A DNA stretch of 64,000 nt from the NCBI RefSeq assembly GCF_000737325.1, contig NZ_CP011125.1:248001-312000 (forward strand), given 5' to 3'. The stretch's first letter is position 1. Each line of letters starts with the position of its first letter. Shown piece after piece: positions 7,286 to 14,298 of this stretch. Below the pieces are notes generated by a model that searched no databases, was not told where the DNA came from, and worked only from the letters and a program-made list of their open reading frames with translations. Origin of the DNA: Sandaracinus amylolyticus (GTDB lineage Bacteria; Myxococcota_A; Polyangia; Polyangiales; Sandaracinaceae). Both the position numbers and the translations under genes were made by a program.

Positions 7286-7309
7286 CGAGGAATTGGGGCG
7301 AATTTCCAA

Positions 7310-7475
7310 GGAGAGCAGGAGGGTTAGGAAGACCACGGAACTAGGCGAAAACGTGGTCACATGCGCGCTCTGGGGGTCCATTCGATGGCAAGAGTGGAAT
7401 TCGGCTCCTGCAACTCCTGCTCTCCTCAGCGGCACGAACTCCTGCTCTCCTCCGCGAAGCGCTCCTGCTCTTCTC
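7310..7475. repeat. C/T-rich direct repeats with an inverted copy, upstream of frmA
   Basis: Between the VWA gene and frmA (280 bases, visibly less GC-rich), CTCCTGCTCTCCTC occurs at 7414-7427 and 7439-7452, with a one-mismatch copy at 7462-7475, so the spacing is 25 then 23 bases. An inverted copy (GGAGAGCAGGAGG) lies at 7310-7322 and could pair with any of the three. On the plus strand the copies are CUCC-rich, like anti-Shine-Dalgarno sequences. This could be a leader RNA, a small RNA or protein-binding sites for frmA; nothing in the sequence decides between them. Confidence 0.5.
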
Positions 7476-7565
7476 AGCGACTCCTTTCCTCGGCTCGCTC
7501 CTCGGCGGGGCCTTCCTCGATCGGAGCGGTGTCCATCGTCGCGCGGCTTCGGTAGGCTGCGCCGC

Positions 7566-8678
<1,113 letters not shown>

Positions 8679-8682
8679 TCGT

Positions 8683-9537
8683 ATGAGCGAAAGCGATCTC
8701 GTGGTCCGCTCCGAGCACGCGTGCTTCGGCGGACGGCAGGGCTTCTACGAGCACCCGAGCGCCGCGTGCGCGTCGCCGATGCGGTTCTCGGTGTACCTGC
8801 CGCCCGCGGCGCTACGCGGCGAGCGCGTGCCCGCGCTCTACTACCTCGCCGGGCTCACCTGCAACGAAGAGCACCTGCCCACGAAGGGCCAGGCGCACGC
8901 GGTCGCGGCGGAGCTCGGCCTCGCGCTCGTCGCGTGCGACACGAGCCCGCGCGCGACGCGTTATCCCGGCGATGACGCGGCGTGGGACTTCGGCATCGCG
9001 GCGGGGTTCTACCTCGACGCGACGCAGCCGCCGTGGTCCGCGAGCTATCGCATGGAGACGCACGTCGTCTCCGAGCTGCCCTCGTGGGTCGAGCGTCACT
9101 TCCCGGTGCGCAGCGACGCGCGCGGCATCTTCGGGCACTCGATGGGCGGGCACGGCGCGCTCACGCTCGCGCTGCGTCATCCCGATCGATATCGCAGCGT
9201 GTCGGCGCTCGCGCCGATCGTCGCGCCCAGCGAGGTGCCGTGGGGCGTGAAGGCGTTCACCCACTACCTCGGCGCGGATCGCGCGACGTGGCGCGAGCAC
9301 GACGCGACCGAGCTGGTGAAGAGCACGCAGCTCGCGAGCGAGATCCTCGTGGACCAGGGCATGGCCGACAAATTCCTCGAGCGCGAGCTCCAGCCCGAGC
9401 GCTTCGAGGCGGCGTGCGCGGCGGCGGGCCAGAGGCTGCGCCTGCGACGTCACGACGGCTACGACCACAGCTACTACTTCATCGCGACGTTCATGGCGGA
9501 TCACCTCCGCCATCACGCTGCGATCCTCGGTGCGTGA
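8683..9537 (+). CDS. fghA: S-formylglutathione hydrolase
   Basis: A 284-residue alpha/beta hydrolase of the esterase D family. It hydrolyses S-formylglutathione to formate and glutathione, the second step of glutathione-dependent formaldehyde detoxification. The nucleophile is Ser153 in GHSMGGHGA. The likely His is in YDHSYYFI (about residue 261) and the Asp in the LVDQG region (about 224). YYLAGLTCNEE near residue 53 is typical of the family. It starts 4 bases after the frmA stop, so the two form a pathway operon. It ends immediately against the convergent metalloprotease gene. Confidence 0.93.
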   Translation: MSESDLVVRSEHACFGGRQGFYEHPSAACASPMRFSVYLPPAALRGERVPALYYLAGLTCNEEHLPTKGQAHAVAAELGLALVACDTSPRATRYPGDDAAWDFGIAAGFYLDATQPPWSASYRMETHVVSELPSWVERHFPVRSDARGIFGHSMGGHGALTLALRHPDRYRSVSALAPIVAPSEVPWGVKAFTHYLGADRATWREHDATELVKSTQLASEILVDQGMADKFLERELQPERFEAACAAAGQRLRLRRHDGYDHSYYFIATFMADHLRHHAAILGA

Positions 9538-11036: not shown

Positions 11037-11810
11037 ATGGATCTGCAGCTCACGGGCAAGATCGCGATCGTCACCGGCGCGAGCCGCGGCATCGGCCGCG
11101 CGATCGCGCAGACCCTCGCGCACGAGGGCGCGAAGCTCGTGCTCGTCGCGCGCTCGCAGGAGCTCCTCGACGCGGTCGCGCGCGAGCTCGGGACGGAGAG
11201 CCTCGCGCTCGCCATCGATCTGCGCGCGCCCGATGCACCGCAGCGCGTGGTCGATGCGACGCACGCGCGGTTCGGCGCGATCGACGTCGTCGTGAACAAC
11301 GCGGGCGCGACGAAGCGCGGCGACTTCCTCGCGCTGACCGACGACGAGTGGGCGGACGGCTTCGCGCTCAAGCTCTTCGGCGCGATGCGCCTGTGCCGCG
11401 CCGCGTGGCCGCACCTCGAGGCGAGCCGCGGCGCGATCGTCAACGTGATCGGCATCGGCGGGCGCACCGGCACCGCGGAGTTCGCGATCGGCGGTGCCGT
11501 CAACGCGGCGCTCTCGAACCTCACGAAGGTGCTCGCGGATCGCGGCGCGACGCGCGGCGTGCGCGTGAACGCGATCAACCCCGGCGCGATCGCGACCGAG
11601 CGCCTCCGCACGCGCATCCGCACCGCCGCGGCGCACGACGGAGTCTCGGAGGACGAGGCCGCGCGGCGTATGGTCGCCGCGATGGGGATCCCGCGGTTCG
11701 GCGAGCCCGAGGACATCGCGCGCGCCGTCGCGTTCCTCGCATCGCCGAGCGCGAGCTACCTGCAGGGCGCGATCGTCGACGTCGACGGAGGCGCGACGAA
11801 GACGCTCTGA
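11037..11810 (+). CDS. SDR-fold protein lacking the canonical catalytic Ser-Tyr-Lys
   Basis: A 257-residue Rossmann protein with the NAD(P) motif TGASRGIG (13-20), NNAG (87-90) and the SDR-typical VNAINPGAIATE and DVDGGAT segments. Aligning by eye on the AALxxLTKxLA helix, the YxxxK motif is replaced by GGAVN (Gly152, Asn156), and the catalytic Ser position is Gly139 in NVIGIGG. Cofactor binding seems preserved, but classical oxidoreductase chemistry is not expected. It may be a divergent SDR subfamily with other chemistry, or a binding protein. Its stop is 4 bases from the convergent hybrid kinase stop. Confidence 0.85.
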   Translation: MDLQLTGKIAIVTGASRGIGRAIAQTLAHEGAKLVLVARSQELLDAVARELGTESLALAIDLRAPDAPQRVVDATHARFGAIDVVVNNAGATKRGDFLALTDDEWADGFALKLFGAMRLCRAAWPHLEASRGAIVNVIGIGGRTGTAEFAIGGAVNAALSNLTKVLADRGATRGVRVNAINPGAIATERLRTRIRTAAAHDGVSEDEAARRMVAAMGIPRFGEPEDIARAVAFLASPSASYLQGAIVDVDGGATKTL

Positions 11811-11814
11811 GCGC

Positions 11815-14298
11815 TCACGAGCGCGGGCGCGCCGCGGCGCGCAGCGCGGACTCGAGCTGCGCGGGGAGGTACGGCTTCTCGAGCACCACGGCGCGTGCGA
11901 GCTCGGTGTCGTCCGCGGAGCGCGCGCTCTCGCCGTAGCCCGATGCGAGCACCACGCCCATGTGCGCGTCGTCGCGCATCGCGCCGCGCGCGAGCTCGAC
12001 CCCCGACACGTCGGGCAGCCCGACGTCGGTGAAGAGCACGTCGAAGCGCGCGCGCTGCAGCGCCTCGCGTGCTTGCGCGCCGCTGGCCGCGATCTGCACG
12101 TCGTGCCCGAGCGCGGAGAGCATCTCGCCCGCGAGCTCGCGCGAGTCGTCGTCGTCCTCGACGATCAGCACGCGCATCGAGCTCACCGCCGCGTCGCACG
12201 ATCGCGCGCGCGCATCGAGCACCTCGCGCACCCGGCGCGCGAGCTCGTCGCGCGAGTACGGCTTGCGGAGGAGGCGCGCGCGGCGTCCGAGCAGCGCTTC
12301 GTGCGCGACCGCGTCCTCGCTGTAGCCGGACGTGAAGAGCACCGCGAGCTCGGGCCGTGCCGCCTCGGCGCGCGCCGCGATCTCGTGGCTGCGCAGCGCG
12401 CCGGGCACCACCACGTCGACGAAGAGCAGGTCGATCGCCGCGCCGCTCTCGAGGATGGCCATCGCGCTCGCGCCGCTGTCGGCCTCGATCACGCGATATC
12501 CGAGATCGCGCAGCAGATCGACCACGGTCGCGCGCACCGCGACGTCGTCCTCGAGCACGAGGATCGTCTCCGATCCTCCGCGGGCGCCCGCCGCGGTCGC
12601 CTCGGTGTCCGCGTCGGCGACCCGATGGGTGCGCGGCAGGTAGACCTCGATCGTCGTGCCGCGGCCGGGCTCGCTCGTGATCGCGACGTGCCCGCCGGTC
12701 TGACGCACGAACCCGTAGACCATGCTCAGCCCGAGCCCGGTGCCGCGGCCCTCGCCCTTCGTCGTGAAGAACGGCTCGAACGCGCGCTCGATGACCTCGC
12801 GCGTCATGCCGCACCCGGTGTCCGACACCGAGAGCAGCACGTGATCGCCCGCCGTCGCCTCGGGGTGTCTCGCCGCGCGCTCCGCGTCGAGCGTGACGTT
12901 GCGCGCCGCGATCACGAGACGGCCCGCGCCGTTCATCGCGTCCCGCGCGTTGATCGCGAGGTTGAGCAGCACGTTGTCGAGCTGGTTGCGATCGACGAAC
13001 GTCCTCCAGAGACCCGGCTCGACGTCGCGCGCGATCTCGATCTGCTCGCCGACGGCGCGGCGCAGCAGGGGCTCGACGTCGCGCGTGAGGCGATCGAGCT
13101 CGACGACCTCGGGATCGAGCTCCTGGCGCCGCGCGAACGCGAGGAGCTGCGACGAGAGCTTCGCGCCGCGCTCCACCGCGCTGGTCGCCTCGCGCAGCCG
13201 GCGCGTCGCCTGCGGGTCGCCCGCGACGTCGGGCGCGATCAGCGCGAGGTTGCCGGCGATCACCTGCAACAGGTTGTTGAAGTCGTGGGCCACGCCGCCG
13301 GTGAGGCTGCCCACCGCCTCCATCTTCTGCGCATGGCGCAGCGCGGACTCGCTCTGCTCGAGCGCGCGCGTTCGCTCCGCGACGAGGTCCTCGAGGTGGT
13401 CGCGGTAGCGCGCGACCTCGTCCCGCGCGCGGCGCTCCTCGGTGACGTCGTGGCCCTGCACGAAGAGCCCGGAGGTCGTTCCGTCGGCCTCGATGACCGG
13501 CTGGTACACGAAGTCGAGGTAGCGCGTCTCGACGTGGCCTCCGCGCTCGAGCGCGACGGGGATGGCGCGGCCGACGAAGGGCTCGCCGCTCTTCCGCACG
13601 CGATCGAGGAGCTCGATGAAGCCCTGCTCCGCGACCTCGGGCAGCGCTTCGCGCACCGGTCTCCCGATCACGTCGCGCGCGCCGACGAGCTCGAGGTACG
13701 CCTGGTTCGCGAGCTCGAACACGTGGTCGGGACCGCCGAGCACGCACATGAAGCCGGGCGCCTGGCGGAAGAGCTGCTGCATGCGGCGCCGCTCGGCCTC
13801 GAGCGCCGAGTTCGTGTCCTGCACCGCGCTCGCGCGCGCGAGCACGTCCGCCTCGAGCTGGTGCTGCCGCTCGCCGGTCGCGTCTCTCGCGGCGGCGCGC
13901 AGGCGCTCGAGCTCGGTCACGTCGCTCGTGTGCTGCAGCACGTAGGCGACCTCGCCGCGCTCGTCGAGGATCGGCGTGTGGGTGGCGCTCCAGAAGCGCT
14001 CTGCGACGACGACGCCGTTCGGCGTCTCGCGCGGCACGCGATAGCGGATGAGCGCGAGGTGATCGCGGCGCTTGGATCGCAGCGTGCGCTCGAGCGACGC
14101 GCGCAGGAGGCGCGCGTTGTCGTTGTCGGGATCCTCGGGGTCGTGCGGGAACACCTCGAAGATCACGCGCCCGATCAGATCCTCGAGGCGGCTCGCGGTC
14201 ACTCGGAGGTACGCCTCGTTCGCTGCCACGAAGCGGAGCTCGCGGTCGAGCACCATGTACGCGTTGGGCGAGGCGTCGAAGATCGAGTGCAGCTGCAT
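11815..14298 (-). CDS. hybrid sensor histidine kinase (PAS-PAS-HisKA-HATPase-REC-REC)
   Basis: An 827-residue soluble protein. PAS domains lie at about 1-128 and 172-290, with a coiled linker at 290-325. HisKA has the phospho-acceptor His338 in GGVAHDFNN. The HATPase_c domain (about 435-555) has DTGCGMT and GRGTGLGLSMV. Two receiver domains follow (about 585-700, VLEDD...FVDV, and 710-825, VEDDDDS...FTDV). No membrane segment is seen, so it should sense a cytoplasmic cue through PAS. It autophosphorylates on His and passes phosphate to its receivers; no DNA-binding output is attached. The protein at 14365-15285 on the same strand just upstream may be a partner. Confidence 0.9.
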   Translation of the reverse strand: MQLHSIFDASPNAYMVLDRELRFVAANEAYLRVTASRLEDLIGRVIFEVFPHDPEDPDNDNARLLRASLERTLRSKRRDHLALIRYRVPRETPNGVVVAERFWSATHTPILDERGEVAYVLQHTSDVTELERLRAAARDATGERQHQLEADVLARASAVQDTNSALEAERRRMQQLFRQAPGFMCVLGGPDHVFELANQAYLELVGARDVIGRPVREALPEVAEQGFIELLDRVRKSGEPFVGRAIPVALERGGHVETRYLDFVYQPVIEADGTTSGLFVQGHDVTEERRARDEVARYRDHLEDLVAERTRALEQSESALRHAQKMEAVGSLTGGVAHDFNNLLQVIAGNLALIAPDVAGDPQATRRLREATSAVERGAKLSSQLLAFARRQELDPEVVELDRLTRDVEPLLRRAVGEQIEIARDVEPGLWRTFVDRNQLDNVLLNLAINARDAMNGAGRLVIAARNVTLDAERAARHPEATAGDHVLLSVSDTGCGMTREVIERAFEPFFTTKGEGRGTGLGLSMVYGFVRQTGGHVAITSEPGRGTTIEVYLPRTHRVADADTEATAAGARGGSETILVLEDDVAVRATVVDLLRDLGYRVIEADSGASAMAILESGAAIDLLFVDVVVPGALRSHEIAARAEAARPELAVLFTSGYSEDAVAHEALLGRRARLLRKPYSRDELARRVREVLDARARSCDAAVSSMRVLIVEDDDDSRELAGEMLSALGHDVQIAASGAQAREALQRARFDVLFTDVGLPDVSGVELARGAMRDDAHMGVVLASGYGESARSADDTELARAVVLEKPYLPAQLESALRAAARPRS

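Follow-up and report, generated by a model that had tools for sequence, protein, structure and literature searches.

A short-chain dehydrogenase/reductase subfamily with a Lys-Gly-Gly-Asn active site that may reduce activated double bonds

We found that a 64-kb stretch of Sandaracinus amylolyticus DNA, referred to throughout as the window, encodes a short-chain dehydrogenase/reductase (SDR; P0001) in which all four positions of the catalytic tetrad are changed, K-G-G-N standing in place of the canonical N-S-Y-K with Lys and Asn exchanged. The data support a separate SDR subfamily, with purifying selection acting on the gene. Judging from the sequence and from analogy to AerF and BacG, P0001 is somewhat more probably than otherwise an SDR of the AerF/BacG type (K-G-x-N) that uses NADP(H) to reduce the activated C=C bond of an anionic substrate, the most likely substrate being an unsaturated carboxylic or keto acid.

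Results

The gene and its SDR fold

The open reading frame of P0001 (257 aa, plus strand) runs from an ATG at 11037 to the TGA stop at 11808-11810 (Table 1), and its G+C content at the three codon positions (0.73/0.53/0.95) is typical of coding sequence at high G+C. Pfam assigned it a single SDR domain, through matches to adh_short_C2 (PF13561) and adh_short (PF00106), and the search returned no domain besides it. The AlphaFold2 model, built with 46 sequences, reached a mean pLDDT of 93.3 and a pTM of 0.92 and matched solved SDRs in Foldseek with TM-scores of up to 0.94. With its Rossmann fold and both the TGxxxGxG and the NNAG motifs, P0001 is a classical SDR, and an earlier note on this DNA was right in describing TGASRGIG (aa 13-20) and NNAG (aa 87-90) as intact. 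The residues on the cofactor side are kept among the 46 family members that we aligned: G14, G18, G20, R39, P182 and T187 in 46/46, N87 in 45/46 and N88 in 44/46. Arg39 together with the basic residue of the Gly loop suggests NADP(H) as the cofactor, following the preference rule for residues of this type set out in passages of PMC11614110.

Table 1. Coordinates in the window of the SDR gene and of the motifs and residues discussed in the text
Feature	Position	Strand	Basis
KGGN-type SDR CDS (P0001, 257 aa)	11037..11810	+	Pfam PF13561 and PF00106; best 80 of 309 relatives; AlphaFold2 mean pLDDT 93.3
TGASRGIG, dinucleotide-binding loop (aa 13-20)	11073..11096	+	Motif search; loop contains a basic residue
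NNAG (aa 87-90)	11295..11306	+	Kept as in canonical SDRs; motif search and alignment
Arg94, family-invariant basic residue	11316..11318	+	46/46 family; 80/80 of best 80 of 309 relatives; inside scan pattern, partly circular
Lys112 at tetrad Asn site	11370..11372	+	46/46 family, 8/8 other KGxN, 0/20 canonical; 80/80 of best 80 of 309 relatives
Gly139 at catalytic Ser site	11451..11453	+	46/46 family, 8/8 other KGxN; canonical Ser 20/20; 80/80 of best 80 of 309 relatives
Arg143, family-invariant basic residue after strand 5 (Lys in AerF, BacG)	11463..11465	+	Alignment, tree rows, best 80 of 309 relatives
Gly152 at catalytic Tyr site	11490..11492	+	46/46 family; canonical Tyr 20/20; 80/80 of best 80 of 309 relatives
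Asn156 at catalytic Lys site	11502..11504	+	46/46 family, 8/8 other KGxN; canonical Lys 20/20; 80/80 of best 80 of 309 relatives
Arg189, family-invariant (also Arg in AerF, BacG)	11601..11603	+	Alignment, tree rows, best 80 of 309 relatives

All four tetrad positions are replaced

We read the tetrad from a joint MAFFT alignment in which 46 family members were set beside 20 canonical SDRs from this and further genomes and plasmids, 8 additional K-G-x-N proteins, AerF and BacG among them, and 5 SDRs of an S-S-R type. The earlier note had seen Gly, Gly and Asn at the sites of the catalytic Ser, Tyr and Lys, within the stretches NVIGIGG (starting at aa 136) and GGAVN (starting at aa 152), and the alignment places G139, G152 and N156 exactly where the canonical rows have Ser, Tyr and Lys in 20/20. 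That description was nevertheless incomplete, as it missed the fourth change, from the tetrad Asn to Lys112, at a site where the canonical SDRs carry Asn in 19/20 and Thr in 1/20. No shifted Tyr-Lys pair was seen in the alignment with the 20 canonical SDRs, and the comparison with homologues that the note had proposed yielded the same K-G-G-N in 80/80 of the best 80 of 309 relatives described below.

Besides the tetrad, the same alignment was searched for family-specific positions, taken as those with a residue found in at least 93% of the family and at most 20% of the canonical rows. There are 23, including A91, T92, R94, G108, L111, K112, W124, G139, G141, R143, F149, G152, V155, N156, N181 and R189. 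On the secondary structure of the AlphaFold2 model, helix 150-173 holds 6 of them, helix 102-130 and the segment between residues 139 and 149 hold 5 each, the loop that follows strand 84-87 holds 3 and helix 188-201 holds 2; of the remaining two, one closes strand 176-182 and the other is in strand 246-249. Most are in the loops that follow strands 84-87 and 133-137 and in these three helices, which we read as the surroundings of the usual SDR substrate site. The three extra Arg residues and the relocated Lys may point to an anionic substrate.

The tetrad is conserved across phyla and the gene is under purifying selection

A single scan of genome contigs yielded 309 confirmed relatives, and we retained the best 80 by similarity to P0001. 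The two peptide patterns used in the scan contain R94 and R118, so that the conservation of these two residues is partly circular, and lack K112, G139, R143, G152, N156 and R189, so that that of the tetrad is not. These best 80 of 309 relatives are 52-72% identical to P0001, all of them carry K-G-G-N as well as Arg94, Arg143 and Arg189 (80/80 each), and their matched regions hold no internal stops; with 80/80 the tetrad is not a product of chance. By record title they belong to eight named phyla: Pseudomonadota (28), Acidobacteriota (18), Chloroflexota (12), Planctomycetota (9), Thermodesulfobacteriota (5), Chlorobiota (5), Abditibacteriota (1) and Verrucomicrobiota (1), with one record unassigned.

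Comparison of P0001 with its congeneric orthologue (94% protein identity) gave a dN of 0.033 and a dS of 0.211 by NG86, and a dN of 0.025 and a dS of 1.08 by YN00. The gene order over 15 kb is preserved in the congener, in two blocks at 88% and 92% DNA identity. The dN/dS ratio, well below 1, supports purifying selection on P0001 and makes decay very unlikely, and here the judgement of the earlier note was borne out, also by the lack of stops among the best 80 of 309 relatives.

In its own phylum the gene looks rare. Of 187 genomes sampled, 2 matched an 8-row profile at E ≤ 1e-60: that of the window itself and a second that encodes an N-S-S-R protein (L029) outside the KGGN family; the congener was absent from the matching genomes of this sample. 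Of 56 genomes sampled from the order, 2 matched the NCBIfam model NF004779 at E ≤ 1e-55, both of the same genus as the window. Within the window's own genome, where 150 of 171 candidates were scored, 13 further proteins matched at E ≤ 1e-30, none of them a second K-G-G-N protein. The patchy spread of the gene suggests horizontal transfer.

P0001 belongs to a clade of its own

NF004779 (PRK06125, short-chain dehydrogenase/reductase, a name without a function) was the best NCBIfam model for P0001, which scored 217.3 bits against it, under the curated cut-off of 261 bits; among the 25 of 234 matches listed, P0001 was above no NCBIfam cut-off. The model matched 46/46 members of the KGGN family at E ≤ 1e-50. 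Three proteins above its cut-off (L125, L126 and L140) also have the tetrad K-G-G-N and, unlike P0001, do not keep Arg94 and Arg143; for one of them, L126, AerF was the sole PDB match at E ≤ 1e-30.

A 55-row IQ-TREE phylogeny built with the four signature columns removed recovered P0001 in a clade of 22 rows (support 100/98), with L125, L126 and L140 as its sister (95/89). AerF, BacG and three Skermanella K-G-S-N SDRs grouped in this tree with the five S-S-R type SDRs (96/95), and an AU test did not reject a single KGxN clade (p 0.068). Read from these sequences, the K-G-x-N site shared by P0001 and AerF/BacG could be convergent or ancestral. The tree, the dN/dS ratio and the presence of K-G-G-N in 80/80 of the best 80 of 309 relatives support the separate SDR subfamily that the earlier note had proposed.

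AerF and BacG have the same type of tetrad

The closest PDB match to P0001 by phmmer and by profile is AerF of Microcystis aeruginosa (6jh7/6jha/6jhb). The first Foldseek row is likewise 6jhb, named 'NADPH and 4-hydroxyphenylpyruvic acid bound AerF', and by their row names the AerF structures hold either NADPH or NADPH and 4-hydroxyphenylpyruvic acid. The next best PDB match of AerF itself is 3u49, BacG/YwfH of Bacillus subtilis (also 3u4c and 3u4d). AerF resembles P0001 at three of the four tetrad sites (Lys for Asn, Gly for Ser and Asn for Lys) and in having an equivalent of Arg189 and a basic residue (Lys) at 143; it differs in its low identity (~34-35%), in Ser rather than Gly at the Tyr site (K-G-Ser-N), in Glu at position 94 and in its gene context, the pathway to the aeruginosin Choi moiety. 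BacG, from the bacilysin pathway, likewise shares the K-G-x-N tetrad, Arg at 189 and Lys at 143, but has Asn at the Tyr site (K-G-Asn-N) and Pro at 94, and it stands on a long branch and is not the sister of P0001. The active-site type is thus already known from AerF and BacG, and K-G-G-N is, as aligned, a variant of it with Arg94/143/189 that occurs across phyla.

The fold of the model alone does not single out AerF. In the Foldseek ranking AerF is mixed with canonical SDRs within a narrow range of E-values, and VIA-align puts canonical carbonyl reductases first, led by sorbose reductase 3ai1/3ai3 (Z 36.1); AerF is not among the 50 VIA-align matches listed, which excludes nothing.

Both solved proteins are assigned reductase activity, in a reference title and in review passages. 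AerF is described as a double-bond reductase, and BacG, in passages of PMC9147277, as the reductase that converts an H2HPP derivative to an H4HPP derivative in bacilysin synthesis. Other SDRs with altered active sites are more distant. Isopiperitenone reductase of Mentha has Glu for the catalytic Tyr, and residue swaps, in which Tyr and Glu are exchanged, switched between ene reduction and ketoreduction (passages of PMC4988501); like P0001 it lacks the catalytic Tyr, a loss that in Mentha accompanies ene reduction, and unlike P0001 it keeps Asn, Ser and Lys and comes from a plant and from a different SDR subfamily. SimC7 (Ser-Ile-His) reduces a ketone by substrate-assisted catalysis although it lacks Tyr and Lys (passages of PMC5039031), with residues other than those of P0001, Ser retained and a carbonyl substrate. 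The Mentha switch and SimC7 show that SDRs can work without Tyr. For a third case, Burkholderia cenocepacia BcSDR with LxxxK, passages of PMC11614110 give a structure and show no activity.

The gene neighbourhood gives little guidance

Upstream of P0001 in the window lies a PSCyt1-domain gene on the opposite strand, and downstream, convergent and 4 bases from the SDR stop, a PAS hybrid histidine kinase with two receiver domains (11815-14298, minus strand). These direct neighbours are not genes of an aeruginosin or bacilysin cluster, they suggest no pathway, and the context gives little guidance. Elsewhere in the window, at 7293-9537 (plus strand), a zinc alcohol dehydrogenase stands beside an esterase-family gene, a pair that looks like glutathione-dependent formaldehyde detoxification.

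Open reading frames were clustered over 87 stretches (80 loci, 6 plasmid loci and the window), and the 40 largest components were viewed. Shared neighbours mostly reflect lineage-specific synteny, for example among seven Ferrovibrio-type, five Lysobacter/Luteimonas-type and four Chloroflexi loci. The exceptions among these components are other SDR genes and a cross-phylum component of five loci, the window included, whose representative resembles a response-regulator protein; its distances range from -91 to 6,293 bases, with one locus within 1.5 kb. Another SDR occurs in the stretch at 13/80 loci of the best 80 of 309 relatives and within 1.5 kb at 10/80, all of the latter Ferrovibrio-type or Chlorobiaceae/Chlorobium. 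Of the 72 co-directional close neighbours, 69 were searched with Pfam and 3 were left out, and no family recurred in more than 4/69; the commonest, at 4/69, comprises altronate/galactarate-dehydratase genes in four Schlesneria records that are 99% identical and so represent one lineage. Open reading frames can be called only roughly in DNA of such high G+C, and contig ends truncate many of the loci, so that weak associations may be missed by these counts.

A cassette was found on plasmids near KGGN SDRs that are 46-54% identical to P0001, in Paracoccaceae (L022), Rhizobium (L024 and L149) and Ochrobactrum (L151). It consists of an MmgE/PrpD family gene, a 3-hydroxyisobutyrate-dehydrogenase-like gene, a carboxymuconolactone-decarboxylase family gene and an MBL-fold gene; Pseudoroseomonas L021 (59% identity) has the first three, its MmgE/PrpD gene being seen by Pfam and not by tblastn. 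A role of the cassette in vitamin B6 degradation was considered and dropped, the names that recall it (pyridoxamine-pyruvate transaminase, lactonase family) being generic annotations. In the DNA around each locus of the best 80 of 309 relatives, an MmgE/PrpD match was found in 3/80 (L060, L079 and L108) and the dehydrogenase-like, decarboxylase-family and MBL parts in 0/80, and none of the four genes is in the window. Of the other plasmid relatives, L023 has LeuC/LeuD and an isocitrate-lyase/PEP-mutase gene alongside, L025 and L148 lie near enoyl-CoA-hydratase and acyl-activating genes, and L026 near a zinc-type alcohol dehydrogenase. The context of the plasmid relatives leans towards carboxylic-acid catabolism and says little about P0001.

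Discussion

BacG adds hydride to a conjugated olefin, and its counterpart of Lys112 is, by count, K113. By alignment, P0001 carries the Lys/Gly/Asn signature of the AerF/BacG-type double-bond reductases, and we read it as a candidate double-bond reductase because these are the closest solved proteins with the same type of tetrad and are described as such (AerF) or as a reductase (BacG). In the mechanism that we propose, hydride would pass from NADPH to the β-carbon of the activated C=C in a conjugate addition, and since it would go there, no Tyr would be needed to protonate a carbonyl oxygen. Lys112, in place of Tyr/Ser as the oxyanion-side residue, would bind or polarise the developing enolate or oxyanion, Arg94, Arg143 and Arg189 would hold the substrate carboxylate, Asn156 would stand in for the Lys of YxxxK in its usual contact with the ribose, and the α-carbon would be protonated by solvent or another group. 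The 'other chemistry' that the earlier note had suggested is supported by the precedents of AerF and BacG. Points against the AerF-type reading are the low identity to AerF, the placement of AerF and BacG apart from the P0001 clade in the tree without signature columns, the fold searches, which do not favour AerF, and the fact that Arg94 corresponds to Glu in AerF and Pro in BacG.

Several other explanations were weighed against a double-bond reductase. P0001 could be a carbonyl (or imine) reductase or dehydrogenase with another acid-base route, the proton coming from Lys112, water or the substrate, as SimC7 reduces its ketone with neither Tyr nor Lys and canonical carbonyl reductases head the VIA-align rows. 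We consider this unlikely, though worth keeping in mind: SimC7 keeps its Ser, whereas P0001 has lost all four tetrad residues, and of the solved relatives with this kind of tetrad, AerF is described as reducing a double bond and BacG as reducing an H2HPP derivative. The plasmid cassette beside the KGGN genes of L022, L024, L149, L151 and, in part, L021 would fit a protein that binds NADP(H) tightly for a reaction without net redox change (isomerase, dehydratase, epimerase or decarboxylase) or as a structural cofactor, but those relatives are only 46-59% identical to P0001, three of the cassette parts occur at 0/80 and MmgE/PrpD at 3/80 loci of the best 80 of 309, and the window has none of them, which leaves such a role improbable.

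That every canonical tetrad residue is gone could also mean an inactive SDR with a cofactor-sensing or scaffolding role. The replacement set, however, is complete and invariant and includes charged residues, the solved relatives are ascribed activity, and the single SDR domain is accompanied by no extra one; among the components viewed there is no recurrent close regulatory neighbour, the five-locus response-regulator component lying mostly kilobases away. We regard inactivity as quite improbable, and the cofactor sensing raised in the earlier note gained no support. Least credible, to the point of being nearly negligible, is an ordinary SDR whose Tyr-Lys pair escaped the alignment, or a decaying gene: G139, G152 and N156 are present in 46/46 family members where the canonical rows have Ser, Tyr and Lys in 20/20, dN/dS is well below 1 and the 15 kb gene order is kept in the congener.

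A broader proposal, which we put forward tentatively and think less likely to be right than wrong, is that the KGGN subfamily has an inverted active site in which Lys112, perhaps with Arg94/143/189, would clamp the oxyanion and the carboxylate in an undescribed primary-metabolic ene-reductase (or an enzyme of another reaction) acting on unsaturated carboxylic acids, and that the K-G-x-N site may have arisen twice, in AerF/BacG and here. Among the open papers listed by our literature searches, none describes the KGGN subfamily or the exchange of Lys and Asn, which the primary papers on AerF and BacG may already describe. The usual annotation of an SDR is dehydrogenase or FabG-like ketoreductase, and one of the plasmid KGGN relatives is indeed annotated FabG; K-G-x-N for N-S-Y-K is a simple signature that would separate a broad mislabelled group. 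If the double-bond reductase is confirmed, the subfamily would supply biocatalysis with flavin-free ene-reductases and offer a clean setting in which to study how hydride is transferred without Tyr-Lys.

Other atypical SDRs

A second atypical group of SDRs came up among the proteins compared, with tetrads such as N-S-S-R or T-S-S-R in which Tyr is replaced by Ser and Lys by Arg (L003, L004, L006, L029, L143, L150 and L152). Five of them (L003, L004, L006, L029 and L143) group with AerF/BacG once the signature columns are dropped, and the solved entry 2z1n has a stretch that resembles this group. The plasmid neighbours of AerF, H41, H43 and H45, were ruled out as KGxN proteins, being of the S-S-R type, and H56 is N-S-Y-K. 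On a Skermanella plasmid (L144:5001-7390) three K-G-S-N SDR genes stand in tandem, adjoining a dienelactone hydrolase gene, LeuC/LeuD and an isocitrate-lyase/PEP-mutase gene.
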